This document shows, piece by piece, positions 16,155 through 43,971 of a DNA stretch of 44,720 nt. This stretch comes from Deltaproteobacteria bacterium (GTDB taxonomy: Bacteria > Desulfobacterota > Dissulfuribacteria > Dissulfuribacterales > QOAL01). The stretch is taken from positions 1 to 44,720 of the forward strand of contig JALWYS010000148.1 of the NCBI GenBank assembly GCA_027003115.1, written 5' to 3'. Numbering within the stretch: position 1 is the first letter of the stretch; each line of letters opens with the position of its first letter. The notes beneath the pieces are model-generated. The model saw nothing but the letters and a program-made list of their open reading frames with translations. It searched no databases and had not been told where the DNA came from. Position numbers and translations under genes: made by a program.

Positions 16155-17804
16155 TCATTGGAAGATGAAAATAGAAAGGACCTTTTTTGCGTGGATGTAA
16201 CCCTTTGAAATAATTTTATATTTCCGACTTTCTAAAACTTTTAACACCTTCCTTTTGTCCTTTTCATACACAACCAGCATGGCCCCTTTGGGTAAGGACT
16301 TGAGCATGTCTTCATTCTTGAAAAAAGTTATTTCCCCAGAAGAAAACCTGCTATAGAGGGCATACTTTAGGCCTTCCCCATCTGGTTTGAATCTGAAAAG
16401 AAATACCCCTGCCGCAGCATTTACAGATCCTTCAGATTCCATAACGAACTGCCTTCCAGACTCTTTCTTGGAAATTCCTGGTTCCAGGGTACAGGTAAGG
16501 CCTGCTGCAAAAACAAAAATCAAAATGCCATATAAAAAAATTGGCCTCCAAGTACCCGGAGCCCTGGCGAAAAAGTACATCAAGGCTAAAAAGACACCAG
16601 TAAAAAGAAGAACCAAGGCCAAAAATGAAAACGGCTCTTTTCCATGATTAATAAAGAAAATGGCAACAAGCAGAAAAGATATAAAAACGAACACCCTCTT
16701 CCAGTGACGTGTGATGATATTCAAGCGTCCCATGGTTTCACTGGCATCTACTTCTTGGCACAAGAGACATGTAAAAAGAATGGATATGGCAGGGAATACA
16801 GGTAATAGGTAGCGGCCATGCCTTGATGTGGCAAAAAGAAAAGGCAGAATAGTTCCTACCGCCATGAGGACAACAAAGACATTAAAATCATTTCCTGAAA
16901 AACAGATAGACCTTTGCTTTATACAGCTTCTGGCTTTTTTGACGCAAAGACCACCAAGAAGCAGCCACCAGGGGGAAAATACCACTAAAAGGTAAAAAAA
17001 GTAGAAGTAAAAGGGCTTGTTTGCACTGCCTGATATCCTTGAAAGGATTTGGGCGTTAAGCACCCTAAAAACAAGTTCCTCTCCTCCCTGGAAAAAAAGG
17101 GCCAGTAGATGGAGACCTGCTACAAGCCCACAAGTGACAGCAGCATAAACAAAAAAGATGACAAGTTTCCTGACATCCCTTTTTAAAGCGAGAAAAGAGG
17201 CAATGGGAATAATACAAAGGACAAGGCCCACGGGCCCCTTCACAAGGTAGGAAAAGGCCATGAACAAATATCCCAGGCCCTTTTTTATGCGGTTTTTACC
17301 CTCTTGTTCCCAAAAGCCTTGGAACAAAAGCATGTTTGAAGAAAAGACCGAAAGCGCAAGCAGCATATCAAGCGTTGCCCTTTCTGCCTTTAGAAAGAAC
17401 TCAGGGGTTGCAAAAAGAATCAGGGAAGAAATGGCGGCCTGGATGCCGCCTGCGTATTTCCTTGTAAAAGAAAAAACAAGTACGAGCAACGCCGTTGCCC
17501 CAAGGAGACTGGGAATGGAAATGCAAAGGGCACAAACCCTTCCCATTAACAGGCAAAAAGGGGCTGAAAGCAGGAAATATAAGGGTGGATAATCGGGATA
17601 GGGCCGACCAAAAAGGATCGGGCAAAATAGGCCCTCACCTTTTAGAACCCCCTTTACGAAAAGGGCCACCCTTGTCTCAAGGCCGTAGATATCCCTTTGG
17701 ACAAGCACAAGCAGGGACGTAAAAAGAAAGAGAAGGGATAGAACCAACACGAAAAAGAAGGGCGATGCTTCAAATGAATCGCCCTCTGCATTCTGTTGTT
17801 TCAT
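16155..17804 (-). CDS. ArnT-like lipid A glycosyltransferase (PMT/GT39-GT83 type membrane protein)
   Basis: A 549-residue polytopic membrane protein with about 11-12 hydrophobic helices. It has an N-terminal periplasmic loop motif RDIYGLETRVALFVKGVLKG, where the acidic residue of the family DE motif lies, and then PDYPPLYFLLSAP, matching the KPPLYYW-like motif of PMT family glycosyltransferases. ArnT moves 4-amino-arabinose from undecaprenyl phosphate to lipid A, and its usual length is about 550. The assignment to ArnT rests on length, topology and the two ArnA halves directly upstream in the operon. Another undecaprenyl-phosphate sugar as donor is possible. Confidence 0.72.
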   Translation of the reverse strand: MKQQNAEGDSFEASPFFFVLVLSLLFLFTSLLVLVQRDIYGLETRVALFVKGVLKGEGLFCPILFGRPYPDYPPLYFLLSAPFCLLMGRVCALCISIPSLLGATALLVLVFSFTRKYAGGIQAAISSLILFATPEFFLKAERATLDMLLALSVFSSNMLLFQGFWEQEGKNRIKKGLGYLFMAFSYLVKGPVGLVLCIIPIASFLALKRDVRKLVIFFVYAAVTCGLVAGLHLLALFFQGGEELVFRVLNAQILSRISGSANKPFYFYFFYLLVVFSPWWLLLGGLCVKKARSCIKQRSICFSGNDFNVFVVLMAVGTILPFLFATSRHGRYLLPVFPAISILFTCLLCQEVDASETMGRLNIITRHWKRVFVFISFLLVAIFFINHGKEPFSFLALVLLFTGVFLALMYFFARAPGTWRPIFLYGILIFVFAAGLTCTLEPGISKKESGRQFVMESEGSVNAAAGVFLFRFKPDGEGLKYALYSRFSSGEITFFKNEDMLKSLPKGAMLVVYEKDKRKVLKVLESRKYKIISKGYIHAKKVLSIFIFQ

Positions 17805-17822: not shown

Positions 17823-18878
17823 TTAGAGGTCCCCTGGCCTTCCAAGGTCCTCTAGGCCAATCTGGCCGGAGTCAACATAGAAGGAGATGGTCTTTCTTAG
17901 TGCCTCCTTGAGCCCAACCCTTGGCTCCCAGCCCAGAATCTTCTTTGCGTTTGATATGTCAGGGACCCTGTAGCCTACGTCCTGGTAGTCAGGGCCGTAG
18001 TAATCCTCCGAGGAGACTTCCCGGAATTCCACCCTTTCTGCAAGGTGGGAGAGGTGTGGAAACTCCTTGACCACCTCTATCATCATCTGGGCAAGATCGC
18101 GTATGGAATAGTCGTTGTGGGGATTCCCAATGTTGAAGATCTGTGAATCGCAACAGCCATCCCTGTTGTGTATAATCCTGAAAAGACAGTCAAGGCCATC
18201 ATCCACATAGGTGAAACAGCGCCTCTGGCTTCCGCCATCAACGAGGGTAATGGGCTCACCCCTTAGTATGTGGCCAAGGAACTGGGTGACCACCCTTGAG
18301 CTGCCCTCCTTTGGTGTGGCAAGGCTGTCAAGCCCGGAACCAATCCAGTTGAAGGGGCGTATGAGTGTAAAACGAAGGCCCTTGTGCTTTCCCATGGCCC
18401 AGATCACCCTATCCATCATTTGCTTGGCACAGGCGTATATCCAGCGCTGTTTGTGGATGGGCCCATAGACCAGGTTGCTTGTCTCTTCGTTGAACTTCTC
18501 ATCCTCGCACATGCCGTAAACCTCGCTGGTGGATGGGAATATCACCCTTGTTCCGTATCTTGCGCACTGCCTTACGATCCTAAGGTTCTGCTCAAAGTCC
18601 AGCTCAAAAACCGCAAGGGGATCCTTTACATAGCTGGCAGGGGTTGCGATTGCTACCAGGGGAAGACAGACATCACACTTTTTTACATGGTACTCGATCC
18701 ACTCCTTGTTTATGGATATGTCACCTTCTATGAAGTGTACCCGGGGATGATTCACCCTGTCCCCAAGCCTGTCACAGGCGAGATCCATGCCGTATATCTC
18801 CCAGTCTGTCTCATCTACTGCCCTTCTGACAAAGTGGCTTCCAATGAATCCGTTGACCCCAAGTATAAGTATCTTCAT
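17823..18878 (-). CDS. UDP-glucuronate decarboxylase (ArnA C-terminal domain homologue)
   Basis: A 351-residue extended short-chain dehydrogenase with a Rossmann NAD motif ILGVNGFIGSH (residues 5-14 region), the catalytic T117-S118-E119 in FPSTSEVYGM, Y148-x3-K152, and the segment GYQDVGYRVPDISNAKKILG. It closely follows the dehydrogenase half of E. coli ArnA, which oxidatively decarboxylates UDP-glucuronate to UDP-4-keto-arabinose. Here it is a separate gene rather than fused to the formyltransferase. The ATG at 18878 has AGGAG upstream. It lies 29 nt after the formyltransferase gene. Confidence 0.88.
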   Translation of the reverse strand: MKILILGVNGFIGSHFVRRAVDETDWEIYGMDLACDRLGDRVNHPRVHFIEGDISINKEWIEYHVKKCDVCLPLVAIATPASYVKDPLAVFELDFEQNLRIVRQCARYGTRVIFPSTSEVYGMCEDEKFNEETSNLVYGPIHKQRWIYACAKQMMDRVIWAMGKHKGLRFTLIRPFNWIGSGLDSLATPKEGSSRVVTQFLGHILRGEPITLVDGGSQRRCFTYVDDGLDCLFRIIHNRDGCCDSQIFNIGNPHNDYSIRDLAQMMIEVVKEFPHLSHLAERVEFREVSSEDYYGPDYQDVGYRVPDISNAKKILGWEPRVGLKEALRKTISFYVDSGQIGLEDLGRPGDL

Positions 18879-18907: not shown

Positions 18908-19828
18908 TTATCTCAAAATGACTTGCCTTTTAAAAAGCTCTTCTGGGATTTTGCCCGCATCAGGCGCAATTTTATTTGTAAAAGAGGCGCTAATCACCCT
19001 TAGCATCCCCTTTCCTGTCTGTACAAGCACCCTTTCATCCTGAACATGCACCGTACCCTCCTTGAAGCCAAGGTGGGTGTCCTCGAGGGGCTCCGCGTCC
19101 CAGATAAAAAGACTCCTATCTTCCAATTGGCAAAATGCCCCAGGATAGGGCCAGGTAACGGCCCTTATTAGGTTGTAAATGTTTACGCAGGAATCCTTCC
19201 AGTTGATCCTTCCATCCTCAGGACGCCTTCCTCCAAAGTATGTGGCCTTGGAATGGTCCTGGGGGATACGGGGTGCCGTACCGTCAAGGAGCATTGGAAT
19301 GAACCTTCGCAGGACCTGTTCCGCAGCATCCTCGAGCTTTTTGAAAAGGGTAAGGGCCGTATCCCTAGGCGAGACCTCAACCGCCTCCTGGCCAACTATG
19401 TCCCCTGCATCAGGCCTTACAACCATGTGGTGCAAGGTTACTCCGCTTACCCGCTCTCCATGGACGAGCTGCCAATTCACTGGGCAGCGACCCCTGTACT
19501 TTGGAAGAAGGGATCCGTGCAAATTCACGGCTGCAATGCGGGGGATGGAAAGTATCTCCTCCTTGATCATCTGCCTGAAATAACAAGATAGAATCACCTC
19601 TGGAGAAAGGTCCCTCAGAAGATCCACCCACTCTTTTTCATTTACATTTTCAGGAAAGTAAACTGGGATATTGTAACTCCTTGCAAGGGCTGCAAGGGAG
19701 TCAAACCATATGTTTTCAGACTCACTATCTTTGTGGGTAAAGACTGCTGGCACATCCAAGCCAAGATCCATGAGGACCTTCAGCGCCCTGCACCCCATAT
19801 TGTGATATCCGAGAAGGACAACGGACAT
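18908..19828 (-). CDS. UDP-4-amino-arabinose formyltransferase (ArnA N-terminal domain homologue)
   Basis: A 306-residue protein matching the N-terminal half of ArnA. It has the formyltransferase signature NLHGSLLPKYRG with N102 and H104, and D140 in RPDAGDIVG. These catalytic positions have the same numbers as in E. coli ArnA. The C-terminal part (ATYFGGRRPEDGRINW) also follows the family. It uses N10-formyl-THF to formylate UDP-L-Ara4N. The ATG at 19828 has AGGAGG 5-6 nt upstream. It is immediately downstream of the broken PAP2 gene. Confidence 0.88.
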   Translation of the reverse strand: MSVVLLGYHNMGCRALKVLMDLGLDVPAVFTHKDSESENIWFDSLAALARSYNIPVYFPENVNEKEWVDLLRDLSPEVILSCYFRQMIKEEILSIPRIAAVNLHGSLLPKYRGRCPVNWQLVHGERVSGVTLHHMVVRPDAGDIVGQEAVEVSPRDTALTLFKKLEDAAEQVLRRFIPMLLDGTAPRIPQDHSKATYFGGRRPEDGRINWKDSCVNIYNLIRAVTWPYPGAFCQLEDRSLFIWDAEPLEDTHLGFKEGTVHVQDERVLVQTGKGMLRVISASFTNKIAPDAGKIPEELFKRQVILR

Positions 19829-20033
19829 GGCCCCTCCTAATTCCTTGTTATTGGCATCATTGATTGGTCTTGATGGTCAAAAGGCGGGGCCCCACCCGGA
19901 ATTGTAAAGGGAGTGCCCCCTTGACAACTACCTCTGCAGAGATAATCGCCAAAAGGAATCCTGCTGCAATGTCGGTCAGAAAGTTGGACTGACCCACAAA
20001 TCTTCCCAGAGAAACAAACATTGCAAAAGACAT

Positions 20034-20047
20034 AAACAGAGACCTCT
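20034..20047. repeat. Target duplication AAACA plus left terminal inverted repeat of the IS
   Basis: AAACA at 20034-20038 is repeated at 21300-21304. GAGACCTCT at 20039-20047 is the perfect 9-bp inverse of 21291-21299, and partial matching (AAA, TTT) continues inward. The next base is G on both sides, so the duplication could be counted as 6 bp. Confidence 0.85.
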
Positions 20048-21299
20048 TAAAAAGAGCTTTCAATTCGGCGTTTTTGAGCTTAAGCTCATAAAAAATGGCA
20101 TGAATCAAACACAACGAGATTTTATCACAAATTAGGGCATTGTATGCATGATTTTCATGTCATATCTAAGCTTATTTCCGTCTATTTCTGCCAGAAGGCG
20201 CACTACTCCTATGAAATCCTTTATCCGGTGGCCAGTGAACAGGCTCGTCGCAGGTTGTAAGCCATGGAAATAAGGAGAAGATGAACCTCGTTTCTAAAAA
20301 GCCCTATATATCTAGCCCGGGCATGGCCCCATTTGCTCTTTATTATGGCAAAGGGCCTTTCTACCTGGGCCCGTATCTTGGAAATCTCCTTGTTCCTTTT
20401 CTTGTCTTTCTCAGAAAGAGGTGCCCCTCTATAAGCCTTCTTCATAAGACCGTTCTTGATGCCCTTTGCTTCAAGCTCCTTGGCCCTATGTTTGTCATAA
20501 TATGCCTTGTCTGCATATACGGCCTTTTCATCCCCGCTAAGAAGCTCATTGAATATCTCATGGTCATTTACTCTTGCCTGGGTCATCTCAGCTTTTCTGA
20601 TTATGCCAGAGCCCTGGTCCACTCCAATATGGGCCTTGTAGCCATAGCAGTGCTTCTTATTCTTGCCTTTTCCCTTTGCTCCCCAGGAGGCCTCTGGGTC
20701 CCTGGGCTTCTTGTCTTTTCCAGGGGGTCTTGTGGCAGCAGGATAAAAGGTGGCATCAATCAGAGTGCCAGCCTTTACCACAAAACCCTTGTTCTCTATC
20801 TGTCTGTTGATTTCCTCAAAAAGCTCTTTTGCAAGATCACCAAGCTGTTTTCTGAAAAGGCAAATTGTGGTTTCATCAGGACCTGTTTGGGTAATCTCCA
20901 TATCTAGGAAGACCTTGAAAGAGATCCTGTCATTGACCTGGGCTTCTGCCTGGGGATCAGAGAGCCCGAACCACTGCTGGAGCAAGAGAATCTTGAACAT
21001 GAGGACCGGGTCATATGCAGGTCTTCCTGTATTGGAGGGATGGAGTCCTGCGAGCTTTTTACGAATTGGAGCCCAGTCGATGATGTCGTTGACCTTGTGG
21101 AGCCAATGGGCGGTGTTGATACAGTTCTTGACCTGGAATTGTGCAAATGATAACTGTTGGGTTTTCTTTCGTATCATTGCGATATCTCCTTGATTATGAA
21201 CTGTAGCTATTATAAAATATTTAGTAAAATTTGGCAATAGCTAGTAAATACTATACTGATTTAGTTTTTAAATGAGACAAAAAGTTTCTCAGAGGTCTC
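20039..21299 (-). mobile_element. IS5-family insertion sequence (1261 bp)
   Basis: Bounded by 9-bp perfect terminal inverted repeats (GAGACCTCT) and flanked by AAACA direct repeats. It carries one transposase gene on the minus strand and about 170 bp of apparently non-coding DNA at its left end. Total length fits the IS5 family. The boundary call is supported independently because excision repairs the PAP2 frame. A 5-bp target duplication is not the 4-bp YTAR type usual for the IS5 group, so subgroup assignment is open. Confidence 0.88.
20221..21177 (-). CDS. IS5-family DDE transposase
   Basis: A 318-residue transposase with the IS5 layout. It has the N-terminal GRPAYDPVLMFKILLLQQWF domain, first catalytic Asp in TLIDATFYPAA, second in AVYADKAYYDK, and the Glu in the RAQVERPFAIIKSKWG motif (Y/R-x3-E-x6-K region). 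The start is set at MIRKKTQQLSF because GGAG lies 8 nt upstream of that ATG; the longer frame from 21237 has no such site. The frame is intact, so the element may still be mobile. Confidence 0.93.
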   Translation of the reverse strand: MIRKKTQQLSFAQFQVKNCINTAHWLHKVNDIIDWAPIRKKLAGLHPSNTGRPAYDPVLMFKILLLQQWFGLSDPQAEAQVNDRISFKVFLDMEITQTGPDETTICLFRKQLGDLAKELFEEINRQIENKGFVVKAGTLIDATFYPAATRPPGKDKKPRDPEASWGAKGKGKNKKHCYGYKAHIGVDQGSGIIRKAEMTQARVNDHEIFNELLSGDEKAVYADKAYYDKHRAKELEAKGIKNGLMKKAYRGAPLSEKDKKRNKEISKIRAQVERPFAIIKSKWGHARARYIGLFRNEVHLLLISMAYNLRRACSLATG

Positions 21300-21304
21300 A
21301 AACA
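21291..21304. repeat. Right terminal inverted repeat of the IS plus target duplication AAACA
   Basis: AGAGGTCTC at 21291-21299 is the inverse of the left end, and AAACA at 21300-21304 repeats 20034-20038. Together they define the right boundary of the insertion inside the PAP2 gene. Confidence 0.85.
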
Positions 21305-21787
21305 GATACTTATACCTTGGAAAATAATGGGAAAGAACAAGGGCAACAACAAGTGCCCCCGCTGCATGCCCTGACGGGAAGGAGTGAAAGTCGTTCCTTG
21401 TCGAAAACATGCTAAGGGCCCAGCTCTCTAGACCTGTGCCAGGCCTTGGACGGCCAATTACGAATTTCAAAAGCTGCCCTGCAAGCCCTGCCACCACAAA
21501 GGCCAAAACTGTTTGAATCATACACTTTCGCCGGTAAGACCGCGTACCCTTGGGAACGAAAAAACAGAACAACAAAGTGAGGCCCAGCAGGACTATGCCG
21601 TTTCCCAGGAGATCGGCACTGTGGGCCCAAAGGGTTCCAAGATCGCTGTTTGAAAGTGGCAGGACCAAATTGAAAAAAAACCTGTCAAGGGGTATGACCA
21701 AAGAGCAAAGTATGAGCCCAATAATCAGAAAGTAGAAATACCAACGCCCAAACAGAAAATGTGCAGAGCGGAACGAAGGAAGCACCT

Positions 21788-24043
21788 TTACCAGATACCC
21801 CTCATTCCGAACTCTTTCCTGACCCTGTCTATTCGTCTTTCAAGGTCAACACGCCACTCAGCATGTATCCTGGCACTAGGTGGTGCAATGAGTTCCGGAA
21901 GCCCGTAAACCAGCCTGTCTGCCGCCTGGCTCGCCTCAATGACTGCCTCTATACTCCTTGCGCCAAACTTGTACTTTGCCACAAGAAGCCTCAGGAGGAG
22001 CCCAGATGTCTTTCTCGCAGCCTTTTTCCAGTGGGTCTCCATCTGGTGGGCAATTATGAAGGCCCTTTTAAGAAGTATTCGCTTTAGTCTTTCAAGTTCG
22101 GCGCCAGAGGCGGAATCCCTTAGTAGCTCTTCTGGAATGTCTATGCCATCGATATCGATTACAACCCTCAACCTGCTCATAAAATCGGGTATCTTAAGTG
22201 CCTTTATTTTCCTGAGTTCCTCATGGTCATCCGTATGAAGCAGGGCCTCCATGGCGCTATAGGAATCCTTCACCCCTCCTGCAAACACAAAGACACTTCG
22301 CCCAATGTAACGTGGTATGCCATCAACATAGGTAACACCGTCCTGCATGGATGGAAGAAAGTAGCGCAAGTAACCAAACTCGTTGTCATCGTAGCGACAG
22401 TCAAACTCATCCCAGAAGGCCACAGGCACCCTTCCCTTGGCAACACTTGCCCTCACAAGATCAATGGCAGAGTTAATCTCCTCAGGACCGGAAAATTGGG
22501 TGAGATTGAACTCGAAAAACTCAAAGGGATTGGTATCGAAATTTTCCGCAATGACCTTTGCCACCTGTTCCACTGCAAAGGATTTGCCAGAACCAGGAGG
22601 GCCAAAAACACCTATGCACAAAGGACGCTTGCAGACCTCACGCATGACATAACTGTTCATTACACCCCTTAGGGTAACAACCGGTGCCATCTCAGCCGGG
22701 TCGGTGGTGCGAAGATGTCCAACATTGAACATCCTCAAATCCTTGAAGCCCTGTTTGCGGTTGACCTCCTCCTTTAGATTCTTGAGAACCTGTAGGATCA
22801 CAGAGATGTAGCCGAGATTGTCCACCTTGTCATCGATGTGGCAAGAACTCCGCTTCTCCACATTGGTAAAGAACTGGCGAAATGCCTCCTTTCTTTCTTC
22901 ATCCCAAGACTGGCAGGAAACCTTTTCCAGGATACGCTCCATCTCAAGGCTGTAGGGCGGAAGTTCAAAGAAGCACGGATCTGATTCCGTCTCCAGGAAG
23001 GAACACGGAACCCCTTTGGGATAGTTGGAAGAAAAGTCAAGGTCCGGAAACTCGAGGGCCCCTGAAAAGGCGTAGCCCTTTTGACGAAGGAGCTCCCAAT
23101 TCATCAGGACCCTCTTTGAAAAGTCAAAGAAGAAACTCCTTTCACTGGGAATCCTTGAAAGTCTCAAGGCATCTAAGGTAAGCATTGCCGTAACCAGTGT
23201 ATCGTAACATGGCACAGAGCCCCGCTGTCTGTTGGACCCCCTTTCAGGAAGGCTCGCCTCCTTGTGCCTGAACATCATGTGGCGTGGCCCCACGTATAAC
23301 AGGGCATTGGGAAATATCTCCACAAGGATGTGGCATTTGAACCTCATGGATGAAGGACGCCACAGCCCAACCTCGTCGGATTTGAGGGCCCTGATGCACA
23401 TTGCAACCAGGGACTCCCAGACCACCGCACTGTCCATCTCCATGCGCGTAGTCTCAAGGTCTGACAGGCGGCAAAAGAGCATGAACTTGTTTCCAAAGGC
23501 ATCTGCCCAGTCCTGCCAGTTGGCAGGCGTTATTCCAAGGGCCATGACCCAGGCATTTGGGTTCCTTTTCTTAAGCTCCTGGGCAATGCGCGGAGGATTG
23601 CCACCGTCATCCACTATGATGATCCCCGAATTGTCGCTCACCTTTTTCTGGTTTTCTCCATCCAGATCGACATGATCCGGTTGGCCAGGACGGCCGCCTG
23701 GAGGCAAAATCTGGCGCATCATGAACCAGCCGTGGCCAGGATCCTCAGTGGGCTCTCCCTTCTTGTAAAATATCTGGAATACGTCCCTGGGCTCCCCGTA
23801 GGATATCGTGCTTATCTTCGGGGCAAGTTCCGAGGGGGTGAGAAAGGAAGAAAGCCAAGTCAGGCACTCTTCCAGCCTGCCTTCCTCGGTTGTTATCTCT
23901 CCTGCCAGAAGCTCGATAAAATCCCCGGGATTGTAACCGTAGGCTGGAAGGCTGCCTTCGGCTATCATGCTTACTTCCTTTATGGGAAGATTGGTTATCT
24001 TTACATGGGAACCAAGCAAGAGAAGTCTGTGATCTGTCTTCAC
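21788..24043 (-). CDS. Large AAA+ ATPase with N-terminal PfkB-kinase-like region, function unknown
   Basis: The frame reaches back to a TTG at 24073, but GGGGGTGA lies 4-7 nt before a GTG at 24043, so that start is preferred (751 residues). Numbering from 24073: residues about 150-300 resemble a degenerate PfkB/ribokinase-like domain (GIIIVDDGGNPPR, a DLET...VVWESLV segment, and RGSVPCYDTLVTAML where kinases have their GxGD region, here without the catalytic Gly-Asp pair). Residues about 480-640 form a AAA+ ATPase with Walker A GPPGSGKS (491-498) and Walker B VAFWDEFD (551-558), then a sensor-like strand FVFAGG. Similar kinase-AAA proteins, some with RyR domains, exist but have no settled role. 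It is 51 nt downstream of the secreted repeat protein gene. Confidence 0.6.
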   Translation of the reverse strand: MKTDHRLLLLGSHVKITNLPIKEVSMIAEGSLPAYGYNPGDFIELLAGEITTEEGRLEECLTWLSSFLTPSELAPKISTISYGEPRDVFQIFYKKGEPTEDPGHGWFMMRQILPPGGRPGQPDHVDLDGENQKKVSDNSGIIIVDDGGNPPRIAQELKKRNPNAWVMALGITPANWQDWADAFGNKFMLFCRLSDLETTRMEMDSAVVWESLVAMCIRALKSDEVGLWRPSSMRFKCHILVEIFPNALLYVGPRHMMFRHKEASLPERGSNRQRGSVPCYDTLVTAMLTLDALRLSRIPSERSFFFDFSKRVLMNWELLRQKGYAFSGALEFPDLDFSSNYPKGVPCSFLETESDPCFFELPPYSLEMERILEKVSCQSWDEERKEAFRQFFTNVEKRSSCHIDDKVDNLGYISVILQVLKNLKEEVNRKQGFKDLRMFNVGHLRTTDPAEMAPVVTLRGVMNSYVMREVCKRPLCIGVFGPPGSGKSFAVEQVAKVIAENFDTNPFEFFEFNLTQFSGPEEINSAIDLVRASVAKGRVPVAFWDEFDCRYDDNEFGYLRYFLPSMQDGVTYVDGIPRYIGRSVFVFAGGVKDSYSAMEALLHTDDHEELRKIKALKIPDFMSRLRVVIDIDGIDIPEELLRDSASGAELERLKRILLKRAFIIAHQMETHWKKAARKTSGLLLRLLVAKYKFGARSIEAVIEASQAADRLVYGLPELIAPPSARIHAEWRVDLERRIDRVRKEFGMRGIW

Positions 24044-24124
24044 CTTGTCACCCCCGTTAAAGCCACTTACCAAATACGAAACAAGACTTTAAAGACTCCC
24101 TGAATGAAGCTGTCTTATTCGTCA

Positions 24125-25657
24125 TCAGTTCCACTGCCAAATTGGCCCTTGCGTCTGCGCTGGCCCATTTTCAGGGGCTTCCACTGAAGGGACCTCTATC
24201 TTTTTTTCTGTTACCTCCTTTGGGGAAGATGGTAGAGCCTGCGCGGGAACCGAGGCTGCTGGAAGTTGAGAACCTCCTTCTGCATGATGGCCCCTTTCCA
24301 TCTCAAGCTGTCTCCTTAGTGCCTCAATCTGTGCACCTGAATCAAAGGAGTGGACACCGCCTTCCACGGGCTTTTGTACCTCCTGGGCCATAACGTGCGG
24401 AGGCGTGGTTTTTACCACCAACTCTTCGTCAGAGTCACCCCAAGGCCAAAGCCTTGAAAGCCAGCCCTTTTCCTTCTTCCTCTCCACCTTGATGTTCTCT
24501 ATCTGTCCTAGAGCCTTTTCCAAAGGAACCGGCTCCGGGATGCTAAACTCCACTTCTGGCGGTGGAGGAACAGGAAGCTTTTCCTTGGAGCTCACCACCA
24601 CTGGCTCCTTGTCTTCCTTCTCCTTCTCAAGCCTTGTCTCCTTTGCCTGGGAGACGGTTGGCAACTGGTTCTCCTTTTCCTTACTGCCAAAGGGCCAAAG
24701 CCAAGAGTACCAGCTCCCCTTTTCCTTCTGTGCAGCCCCAGATGAAGGGGACGATCCTTCCTCAGTATCTCCCGCACTGGTCATTTGCGTTTCGTTTTTG
24801 ACAGACACTTTCTTTGGAGTTTCCACGGCATTTTCATCATCGTCAGGTTCATAGACATCTGGCAGTGGGAAAAAGGAATTGTCGTCCTCCTCCTCTGTTT
24901 TAACGGTTGCAGCCTTATTTACTGTATTGCCAGTCATTTCACCTTCTGGCACGTCATCACCTGCGTCATAAACGTCGGGCAAAGGCATGTAAGAGTCGTC
25001 CTCACCAGTTGCCAAAGGACGACTGCTGCCTGTTTGTTGTGCTTGCCTCTTCTGCTGCCTGATCTCACGTTCCTCGTCCTTTTCAAGTCTTTGGCGAACA
25101 AGGATGTCTGGATGAAGCCTCGCCATTGCAAATTCATCATTGGCCTCTATCTTTTTTGACCCAGGTCCTGCAAGGGTTGCAAAATTGGAAACTGTATCGG
25201 CAACAAGTACCTCGCCTGTATGCTTTATGGCATCAGCCATTTTTGCTGAAAGAAGACTGGTTTTTTGGGCAAGCATGCCAAGATCTGAGGCCACAAGGTC
25301 CCAGGTTTTTACTGTCTTGCCATTTTGGGAGGATTTGAGCCAAAAAGAGGCCCCAAAACCATTGCCCATTCGAGAAACCTTGCCAGAAAGTATAAAATCG
25401 GCAAGTTCCACCACACTTGTTTTTCCCTTTCCCACCAAAACCGTGTCTATGTCCTCAGACGAAAGCCTGGTAATGAGCATCTGGCTCAAGGCCTTTCCAA
25501 TATATGCCGGGGAAGAAGAATCACACTTGATGGGCTCTATGGCTACCAGAGGTTTTTTGGATCCTTGAGCATATGCTGCAACGACAAACAATAAGAGCAG
25601 AAAAATAAAAAAAGAAAAAAACAATGAATTCCAGCGAAAAAATACTTTTTTTACCAT
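24125..25657 (-). CDS. Secreted low-complexity protein with TolB/CsgG-like N-terminal domain and internal repeats
   Basis: A 510-residue protein with a signal peptide (residues 1-30, cleavage near AYA-QG). A domain of about 130 residues resembles the TolB/CsgG-like N-terminal domains of some envelope proteins (PLVAIEPIKC, then AYIGKALSQMLITRL). The remainder is acidic and proline-rich with two duplicated modules: PLPDVY at 225-230 and 264-269, each in an acidic setting, and a tryptophan motif WLWPFG (319-324) and RLWPWG (402-407). A final IWQWN echoes it. I do not recognise the whole protein. It starts 3 nt after the FlrC-like gene, suggesting co-expression. Confidence 0.5.
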   Translation of the reverse strand: MVKKVFFRWNSLFFSFFIFLLLLFVVAAYAQGSKKPLVAIEPIKCDSSSPAYIGKALSQMLITRLSSEDIDTVLVGKGKTSVVELADFILSGKVSRMGNGFGASFWLKSSQNGKTVKTWDLVASDLGMLAQKTSLLSAKMADAIKHTGEVLVADTVSNFATLAGPGSKKIEANDEFAMARLHPDILVRQRLEKDEEREIRQQKRQAQQTGSSRPLATGEDDSYMPLPDVYDAGDDVPEGEMTGNTVNKAATVKTEEEDDNSFFPLPDVYEPDDDENAVETPKKVSVKNETQMTSAGDTEEGSSPSSGAAQKEKGSWYSWLWPFGSKEKENQLPTVSQAKETRLEKEKEDKEPVVVSSKEKLPVPPPPEVEFSIPEPVPLEKALGQIENIKVERKKEKGWLSRLWPWGDSDEELVVKTTPPHVMAQEVQKPVEGGVHSFDSGAQIEALRRQLEMERGHHAEGGSQLPAASVPAQALPSSPKEVTEKKIEVPSVEAPENGPAQTQGPIWQWN

Positions 25658-30257: not shown

Positions 30258-31862
30258 TCATTCATCCTGACCCTTTCTCCTCTTCTCATCCATTATGGAA
30301 GAAAAGGCCTCTACTACATCAGGGTCAAACTGGCTTCCTGAATTTCTTATTATTTCTTTGCAGGCGAACTCCACTGACATGGCCTTTCTGTATGGACGTC
30401 TTGACGTAATGGCATCATACGTGTCTGCAACCGCCAGTATCCTGCTCAACCTGGGAATCTCATCCCCTTTGAGTCCATCAGGGTAACCCTTACCATCCCA
30501 TCTTTCGTGATGGTGCCTGATGATGGCTGTTTCCAGCTGGAGAAGACCCAGATGCCCAACGATCTCCGCACCAATGACCGGGTGGGTCTTTATGATCTCG
30601 TACTCCTCATCCGTAAGCCTGCCTGGCTTCATGAGTATCTGGTCCCTGATCCCGATTTTTCCGATATCGTGAAGATGGCCTGCAAATGTCAGGGACTCTA
30701 TCTCTTCCTCTGAACAGTTCATCTTCTTTGCCACCTCAACCGCCCACTGGGTTACCCTTTCTGAATGGAGCTTTGTATAAGGATCCTTGGCTTCAAGGCT
30801 TCGAACAAGGGCACGAAGGGTGGCGTGCAGATTCATAAAAAGGCTGTCATAAAGGAGGATGTTCTCCACTGTAAGGCTTGCCCTTTCAGACAGTATATGA
30901 AGAAGAAAAAGATACTCGTGGGCGACTTCAGCCTCAATATCTTGTGAAGATATCCCTAATACACCAAGTATCTCCTCCCTGATCTTGAAGGGCACCATGA
31001 GATAGCACCCATCCGAACCATGGGTGCTTCCTGACTGGGGTTCATGTTTGATGGGATTTCTGCCAAGAACAGGGATGCCATCCTTCATGACCTTAACTAC
31101 AGGATGGCGCGCATCCATAACAGGTATCTCTGATAGCCCTCTGTCCACGTCGCCGTGAGATGCAACCATCACAAGGCTGTCTGCCTCTTCCTCTTTAATC
31201 CATAACATGGCCATGGATGAGTCAAGCAGGCTCGCCCCAAGATCAACAAGGGTTTGATAGAGCTCGCTGGTGTTCTTGGTCTTGGCAAGGGTCTCGTTTA
31301 TGGTAAAAAGAATACTCTGCTCCCGCATTTTCTTCTCAAGCTTCCTGTTCATCTGTTCAAGAAGCTTTTTTACCTTTACCTCTTCTGTTAGAAATGCATT
31401 TTCAAGCAGGATGCTTCTTTCCTTTACGAGACGCTTAAGTGCCACCTGGAACTGCTCAAACTTGAACGGCTTTGAAAGGAAATCCGATGCTCCGCTCCTC
31501 ATGGCCTTTATAATCACGTCCATGGAAGGGTCACCGGTTATAATGGCTGCAACCACGGTCCTGTCCCTTTCCTTCAGCCTCTTGACAAACTCGATTCCGC
31601 TCATGCCAGGCATATTGATATCAACAAGGACAACGTCCACATCCACTGTCTGGTCCAATACGTTAAAGGCATCAAAGGCATTGGAGGCCTTAAAGACCTC
31701 GTAACACTTCTGAAACTTGAGAAAGGACTCGAGCATGTCGATGATCTGGGGATCGTCGTCAACGATCAACACGCGCCAGACCTTGTCCTTACTGATGGGG
31801 CTGTCTGAATGGGAGCTAGGAGTAGATGCAGAAGATTGCATTGGCTGGTCAAATCTGGTCAA
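30258..31862 (-). CDS. REC-GAF-HD-GYP response regulator (cyclic-di-GMP phosphodiesterase)
   Basis: A 534-residue protein with a receiver domain (D35-D37, phosphoacceptor D81 in VLVDINMP, K131), a coiled-coil linker (about 150-190), a GAF-like domain (about 190-335) and an HD-GYP domain. The last has H398-D399 in HLHDIGKIG, HHERWDGKGYP at 451-461 and the DTYDAITSRRPYR ending. The metal-binding and GYP residues are intact, so it should degrade cyclic-di-GMP, favouring motility. The start is uncertain (TTG 31862 or ATG 31841). It overlaps the preceding REC-SHOCT gene by 14 nt. Confidence 0.88.
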   Translation of the reverse strand: MTRFDQPMQSSASTPSSHSDSPISKDKVWRVLIVDDDPQIIDMLESFLKFQKCYEVFKASNAFDAFNVLDQTVDVDVVLVDINMPGMSGIEFVKRLKERDRTVVAAIITGDPSMDVIIKAMRSGASDFLSKPFKFEQFQVALKRLVKERSILLENAFLTEEVKVKKLLEQMNRKLEKKMREQSILFTINETLAKTKNTSELYQTLVDLGASLLDSSMAMLWIKEEEADSLVMVASHGDVDRGLSEIPVMDARHPVVKVMKDGIPVLGRNPIKHEPQSGSTHGSDGCYLMVPFKIREEILGVLGISSQDIEAEVAHEYLFLLHILSERASLTVENILLYDSLFMNLHATLRALVRSLEAKDPYTKLHSERVTQWAVEVAKKMNCSEEEIESLTFAGHLHDIGKIGIRDQILMKPGRLTDEEYEIIKTHPVIGAEIVGHLGLLQLETAIIRHHHERWDGKGYPDGLKGDEIPRLSRILAVADTYDAITSRRPYRKAMSVEFACKEIIRNSGSQFDPDVVEAFSSIMDEKRRKGQDE

Positions 31863-32514
31863 AGAGTTTCTTTTTCAAGGTTAGAAACTCTTTCTCTGTA
31901 ATGGCACCCTGGGCCTTGAGTTTTGCCAAACGCTCAAGCTGGGTGAGAACCTCTTCCCTGTCAGGACCGCCTTTATGGTGTTGAAGGATATAGGGCGAAA
32001 ACCATTCGGGTCCAAAAAGGGCCTTCTGGCTTGCCTCATCTGGGGTGGCCTTGGTGCTTGCATCCTTGGTATCACCGTCACCCTTTCTGCATGCCTTCAC
32101 AAATTCAATTAACCTCTGGTTTTCCTGCTGAAGCCTTATTTTCTCACAGGCGTTATCAACGCTGATCTTGAGCTCCTCAAGACGAAAGGGCTTTCTAAGA
32201 TAGTCGTAGGCGCCCTCTTTTACTGCCTGAATGGCTGTTTCAAGGGAAGCATAACCTGTTATTATGATAACAATGATATCTGGGTGAAGTTTCTTGGCCT
32301 GATGCAGCACCTCCATCCCGTCCACTTCTGGCATCATGAGATCCGTAATAAGGAGATCAAAGTGTCCTTCCTTCAACTTGCCAACTGCCTCAAGACCGTT
32401 GTGGACAAGGACTATCTCCCTGTCTTCCCGGTCGAGCAATTCGGTAAGAAGGTCACCGATATTTTTTTCGTCTTCGGCTATGAGTACTCTAAGGGGGGTC
32501 TGCTGGTCTGCCAT
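31849..32514 (-). CDS. Response regulator with C-terminal SHOCT domain
   Basis: A 221-residue protein with an N-terminal receiver (E14-D15-E16, phosphoacceptor D58 in LITDLMMPEVDG, K108) and a helical linker with a low-complexity stretch. It ends in a SHOCT domain of about 32 residues (LTQLERLAKLKAQGAITEKE, then FLTLKKKLFDQI). SHOCT is a short oligomerisation or targeting module usually found at the ends of membrane or phage proteins. No DNA-binding domain is present. It is the first gene after the sigma28-type promoter and is coupled to the HD-GYP gene. Confidence 0.82.
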   Translation of the reverse strand: MADQQTPLRVLIAEDEKNIGDLLTELLDREDREIVLVHNGLEAVGKLKEGHFDLLITDLMMPEVDGMEVLHQAKKLHPDIIVIIITGYASLETAIQAVKEGAYDYLRKPFRLEELKISVDNACEKIRLQQENQRLIEFVKACRKGDGDTKDASTKATPDEASQKALFGPEWFSPYILQHHKGGPDREEVLTQLERLAKLKAQGAITEKEFLTLKKKLFDQI

Positions 32515-43146: not shown

Positions 43147-43971
43147 CTATGATGTCAACAGATCTGACAGGAAGACATAATTTTCAAGAGAAACATCCTC
43201 TGCCCTGCTGTCAGGCTCTATGCCCGCCTCAAGAAGGAGCCCTTCAAGCCCTTTTTTTGAAATATTCATTTGATGAGACAAGCTGTTCACTATTTTTTTT
43301 CTTCTCTGGGAAAAAGCCGCCTTGACAACGCTTACAAAGTTGGAAAAATCCTTGGCCTTCGGACCTACTTTTCTCCTCTTAAAGAGTACCAGGGAGGAAA
43401 CCACCTTGGGCCTTGGTCTGAAGAGATTTGGAGACAGATCCATCACAATCTCTACTTTGTAAAAATGTTGAGCAATTAGACTAAGTACCCCATAGCTCTT
43501 TGATGAACGCGTAGACACTACCCTTTGGGCAACCTCCTTTTGGAAAAGAAGCAGGGCAGAAGGGATGGAACTGTATTCATGGGCAAGCTTGAAAACGATC
43601 TGTGAGGAAATGTTATAGGGAAGGTTTCCTGCCAAAAAGGCCTTGTTTTCTCCATAAGGCCTTAAAATCGAATCAAAGGAGACCTCTAGCACATCTTCAT
43701 GCAGTAAATGGCAGTTTTCCGGAAGGCACCCGGTCTTAAGAAGCCAATCAACCAGCCTGTCATCCTTTTCAATGGTGACAACATCCTTAAATCGTTTGCA
43801 AAGAAGCATTGTCATGTTGGCTGTTCCCGTTCCGATTTCAATGACAAGCCCAGGGGACTTTTCCGGAATAAAGGAGACAATTCTTTCAAGTACGCCCCTG
43901 TCTGATAAAAAATTCTGCCCAAGGCTCCTTTTAGGTGTAGGTGGGTTTTCGTTGTGATAACGGTAGTTCAA
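43147..43971 (-). CDS. rsmA: 16S rRNA dimethyladenosine transferase RsmA (KsgA)
   Basis: A 274-residue methyltransferase with the N-terminal PKRSLGQNFLSD motif, SAM motif I VIEIGTGTANMT (43-54), and the adenine-methylase catalytic NLPY (116-119, in AGNLPYNISS). It dimethylates two adjacent adenines in helix 45 of 16S rRNA. The start overlaps the end of the DUF2062 gene by 4 nt. Confidence 0.95.
   Translation of the reverse strand: MNYRYHNENPPTPKRSLGQNFLSDRGVLERIVSFIPEKSPGLVIEIGTGTANMTMLLCKRFKDVVTIEKDDRLVDWLLKTGCLPENCHLLHEDVLEVSFDSILRPYGENKAFLAGNLPYNISSQIVFKLAHEYSSIPSALLLFQKEVAQRVVSTRSSKSYGVLSLIAQHFYKVEIVMDLSPNLFRPRPKVVSSLVLFKRRKVGPKAKDFSNFVSVVKAAFSQRRKKIVNSLSHQMNISKKGLEGLLLEAGIEPDSRAEDVSLENYVFLSDLLTS

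Follow-up and report, generated by a model that had tools for sequence, protein, structure and literature searches.

An ordinary IS-generated pseudogene is present in this window (the whole 44,720-nucleotide stretch that was analyzed), where an insertion sequence sits within a PAP2 gene on the minus strand, from 21785 to 19857. The account that explains it as a whole, and which we consider very probable, is that an IS5-family element inserted into an LpxE/YodM-like PAP2 gene once this lineage had diverged from the sequenced congeners, turning the gene into a pseudogene. The insertion, its junction, the synteny with relatives, a substitution at the catalytic site and a second PAP2 gene in the same genome are all directly observed. 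In the proposed mechanism, an autonomous element would have transposed into the gene, duplicating a 5-bp target (AAACA), breaking the protein within the transmembrane helix leading into motif 3, and thereby parting motifs 1 and 2 from motif 3. Two lesions affect the gene, namely this split and the replacement of the nucleophilic histidine of motif 3 by asparagine; a loss of activity would be expected.

The element spans 1,261 bp (20039–21299, minus strand) and has the termini GAGACCTCT...AGAGGTCTC. Perfect 9-bp terminal inverted repeats are formed by GAGACCTCT at 20039–20047 on the plus strand and at 21291–21299 on the minus strand, and the inverted repeat continues imperfectly to 15 nt (87% complementary). 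Direct copies of AAACA lie on the left (20034–20038) and on the right (21300–21304). The direct match stretches two bases further (AAACAGA) because GA begins the IS and the right flank alike. A 7-bp duplication was considered and rejected on the evidence of independent copies, which place the termini at GAGACC and GGTCTC. Eight further copies or fragments begin at IS base 1, of which seven read GAGACC and one GAGGCC; all have unrelated flanks, while 12 finish at IS base 1261 with GGTCTC, followed by unrelated sequence. This gives the element a length of 1,261 bp and a duplication of 5 bp, and the repeat match at its ends is not due to chance. The inverted and direct repeats by which the initial annotation had defined the insertion are thus exact in their coordinates. 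In 46 genomes of the order and 395 of the phylum, no further copy with both flanks was found, and the best copy in the congener G007 ends at a contig edge; the 5-bp duplication is that of the window copy, the only one in which both flanks are visible. Five bp differs from the duplication size usually quoted for IS5 subgroups, and a literature search yielded no usable target-duplication sizes for these subgroups. A third occurrence of GAGACCTCT in the window, at 43679–43687, is apparently fortuitous.

The single long open reading frame of the element shares the orientation of the broken PAP2 gene and encodes a transposase of 318 residues (20221–21177, minus strand) with DUF772 and DDE_Tnp_1 domains (Pfam scores of 119.8 bits for PF01609 and 90.9 bits for PF05598). 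The start assigned mechanically to this frame is a TTG at 21237, which sits in the −35 box of a promoter-like sequence, so that the ATG at 21177 is the likelier start. The score against NCBIfam NF033581 (transpos_IS5_4) is 270.5 bits, with a cut-off of 140, in agreement with the earlier description of an intact IS5-family transposase. The element resembles the IS5 family (NF033581; ISAba23-like plasmid elements) in its DUF772 and DDE_Tnp_1 domains, a score well above the curated cut-off, a single open reading frame, a length of about 1.26 kb and short terminal inverted repeats. It differs in the apparent 5-bp duplication, and the closest plasmid copies share only 37–41% protein identity with its transposase.

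A copy of the IS with 91% identity is found in G007. The two transposases differ by a dN of 0.038 and a dS of 0.313, giving a dN/dS of 0.12, which indicates that the element stayed functional. Between the same genomes, the neighboring host genes fliM and UDP dehydrogenase have dS values of 1.8–2.2 (two other host genes saturate). The much lower dS of the transposase therefore indicates that the IS moved between the species after their split, documenting a mobile IS5-family element common to congeneric genomes of Deltaproteobacteria/Thermodesulfobacteriota type. The window genome contains one full-length copy, that of the window itself, and three fragments. These fragments were considered as possible MITEs and rejected, as none has a matching other end within 1.6 kb. 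Left ends of the IS lie at L081 2188–2240 (contig C129) and L079 1588–1726 (contig C69), where they break off after 53 and 143 bp, respectively; the sequences beyond apparently contain genes of other mobile elements.

The 5′ fragment of the PAP2 gene (21300–21785, minus strand; residues 1–162 from a GTG start at 21785) scores 45.9 bits against PF01569 and carries motif 1 (KFVIGRPRP) and motif 2 (PSGH). Its reading frame extends into the IS as far as a stop at 21261. The 3′ fragment (19857–20033, minus strand; residues 163–220) contains the substituted motif 3 and scores 23.4 bits. Neither fragment has stops or frameshifts, and their matches to the PF01569 profile adjoin, covering positions 6–76 and 78–122. 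When the IS and one AAACA are deleted, ...RYKYLF joins MSFAMF... in a single open frame of 220 residues from the GTG at 21785, as the initial annotation had predicted (about 220 residues). The joined protein scores 68.8 bits against PF01569 (cut-off 27.2, which the 3′ fragment alone does not reach), confirming that the interrupted gene belongs to the PAP2 family. The KX6RP and PSGH motifs are intact in it (K107, R114-P115, P137-S138-G139-H140).

The gene is whole in five congeneric genomes (G001, G002, G003, G006 and G007). In the metagenome-assembled G003 (contig JALWNK010000040.1), the uninterrupted PAP2 is 75% identical to that of the window, and the window junction KYLFMSFAMF aligns with RYMFMSFALF without gaps or indels, so that the predicted junction is matched by a natural intact gene. 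All five orthologues lie in the same gene order, which, as far as the contigs reach, is AAA ATPase, PAP2, formyltransferase, UDP dehydrogenase, PMT, fliL, fliM and fliN. The AAA ATPase (21788–24073, minus strand) lies directly upstream of PAP2, its stop nearly abutting the PAP2 start, likewise in G003. These comparisons bear on the possibility that the contig is an assembly chimaera into which the IS was wrongly joined. The metagenomic assembly comprises 207 contigs, repeats are a frequent cause of contig breaks, and several IS copies in G007 and G015 lie at contig ends. However, the target duplication is present on both sides of the IS, both flanks are exactly colinear with five genomes, and the single full-length copy in the window genome leaves no other copy for mis-joining. 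An assembly error is given almost no credence on these grounds, and a genuine insertion is preferred.

The histidine of motif 3 (R-X5-H-X3-D) is the nucleophile in PAP2 catalysis. According to the homologue alignment, this position is occupied in the window by Asn179 (codon AAC, 19983–19985, minus strand). The motif reads GRFVGQSNFLTD, containing GQSNFLTD, and is thus R-X5-N-X3-D. Histidine is found in 57 of 57 aligned homologue rows, which represent about 50 distinct loci, seven of them present under two names; asparagine occurs only in the window. K107, S138, R173 and D183 are also invariant in this alignment. The H207A variant of PgpB from E. coli has undetectable activity and does not complement (PMC7413402), and in LpxE the equivalent attacking residue, H143, is positioned for in-line attack (PMC6581854). 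The expectation that excision would restore all three PAP2 motif regions thus holds for KX6RP and PSGH but fails for motif 3, which is recovered without its catalytic residue, Asn179 standing at the histidine position. The rejoined halves are PAP2 by descent, and since the catalytic histidine has been replaced, the rejoined protein is probably not a working phosphatase. This case is a worked example of how a frame restored by in-silico excision is not necessarily a restored enzyme, and motif residues should be checked against uninterrupted relatives. Because the contig comes from a metagenome assembly, a consensus error might underlie the Asn codon, and part of the population might lack the insertion. 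A second PAP2 gene, with an intact motif 3 (SRIYLGVHYPLD), is located on contig C188 of the window genome and may cover any housekeeping need.

The initial annotation regarded the insertion as a recent event. Its recency is supported only relative to species divergence: the congeners lack it, its transposase remains intact, and both PAP2 fragments are without stops or frameshifts, which places it late relative to the split from G003. Compared with G003, the PAP2 gene has a dS of about 0.5–1.0, and dN/dS is 0.18 for the 5′ fragment and 0.36 for the 3′ fragment. Amino-acid changes polarized with outgroups number nine in the window lineage and 14 in the G003 lineage for the 5′ fragment, and six and one, respectively, for the 3′ fragment (Fisher p = 0.08 for the contrast, on small numbers). 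Decay is not general, because the 5′ fragment has no excess of changes; the excess in the 3′ fragment weakly favors decay after the insertion.

These counts are relevant to whether PAP2 was already dead, or a pseudoenzyme that had first lost its catalytic histidine, when the IS struck a gene free of selection. The asparagine at the catalytic position is compatible with such an order of events, and the absence of relaxation in the 5′ fragment implies that most of the branch was under constraint, so that sequence alone does not tell which loss came first. On the other side, the lineage-specific excess is confined to the 3′ fragment, as expected for drift after this part was cut off from the start, albeit with small numbers. 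We regard a prior loss of the histidine as a somewhat unlikely order, and infer that the insertion probably came before the His-to-Asn change or close to it.

By the sequence and predicted fold of its orthologues, the PAP2 family of the split gene resembles LpxE and YodM. When orthologue profiles were compared with solved structures, Aquifex LpxE ranked first (1.1e-7, and 1.3e-21 with profile A2). A structure was predicted for the G003 orthologue (mean pLDDT 82.6), and within this model the insertion point (after residue 162) falls in helix 156–175, just before motif 3. The lipid A 1-phosphatase LpxE of Aquifex aeolicus (PDB 6EBU) is both the best PDB sequence match and the best Foldseek match, and it superimposes on the model with a VIA-align Z of 17.7 and an rmsd of 2.8 over 157 aligned residues. 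The identity is only 26%, and the catalytic histidine of LpxE is absent from the window copy. YodM and PgpB are PAP2 phosphatidylglycerophosphate and C55-PP phosphatases. YodM (5JKI; Z 18.3, rmsd 4.1, 183 aligned), tied with LpxE, and the PgpB H207A structure (8BM3; Z 13.5, rmsd 4.5, 186 aligned) have the same fold as the model, at identities of 19% and 14%, respectively, the model in each case being that of the G003 orthologue and not of the broken window gene. LpxE dephosphorylates C55-PP as well (PMC6581854). The SepP and PRK11837 undecaprenyl-diphosphatase equivalogs were rejected on their NCBIfam cut-offs (49.4 bits vs 250 and 21 bits vs 229, respectively).

Downstream of the split gene on the minus strand are an intact ArnA-type formyltransferase (18908–19828; NF005414, 368 bits, cut-off 316), an intact UDP-4-keto-pentose/UDP-xylose synthase of the ArnA dehydrogenase type (17823–18878; NF008872, 583 bits, cut-off 294), and a PMT_2-type glycosyltransferase (16155–17804) that is weakly ArnT-like and scores under the curated cut-offs. 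The formyltransferase has a dN/dS of 0.07 relative to G003. ArnB-like and ArnD-like genes, also under curated cut-offs, occur together on contig C65 of the window genome. With the formyltransferase and dehydrogenase adjoining it and LpxE as its closest solved structure by sequence, the PAP2 gene fits the envelope-lipid gene set to which it had been assigned, and it may plausibly act in the dephosphorylation of envelope lipids, alongside a possible aminoarabinose pathway. The linkage of this LpxE-like gene with ArnA-type genes is conserved in the genus: PAP2 adjoins the formyltransferase in six genomes, the window genome included, and the congener G008, which is without the formyltransferase, is also without an ortholog of the split gene.

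A promoter-like sequence precedes the transposase ATG (TTGCCA-17-TATAAT, 21209–21237, minus strand; 11 of 12 matches, by consensus only). It also faces the 3′ fragment of PAP2 and the arn-like genes, and its strand showed no terminator-like site. The surviving Arn-type genes, which lie in the same orientation as the IS, may thus receive transcriptional read-through from it. It is conceivable that the insertion was adaptive or regulatory, with phosphatase loss or a promoter supplied by the IS being selected and altering envelope-lipid modification by the Arn-type genes. The linkage in six genomes, the joint absence in G008 and the direction of the promoter-like site would accord with this. Nevertheless, the insertion is a single event in a single genome, the number of promoter-like matches in the region (three found, 2.5 expected by chance) is at chance level, and selection is unnecessary for an IS to insert into a dispensable gene; an adaptive origin seems improbable. 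More doubtful still is a combined scheme in which the His-to-Asn change came first, the pseudoenzyme was kept near the Arn-type genes, and the IS then took its place, serving the lipid-modification genes downstream as a mobile promoter. Insertion as an ordinary pseudogene-forming event is preferred to both.

Two further observations concern other genes of the window. A 510-residue protein (24125–25657, minus strand), unmatched in Pfam and NCBIfam, has accumulated more amino-acid changes in the window lineage than in G003 (71 vs 35, p = 0.001), while the adjoining AAA ATPase displays the opposite trend (five window-lineage vs 18 G003 changes). Two adjacent response-regulator proteins (30258–31862 and 31849–32514, minus strand) overlap by a few bases, and one of them contains an HD-type c-di-GMP phosphodiesterase domain.
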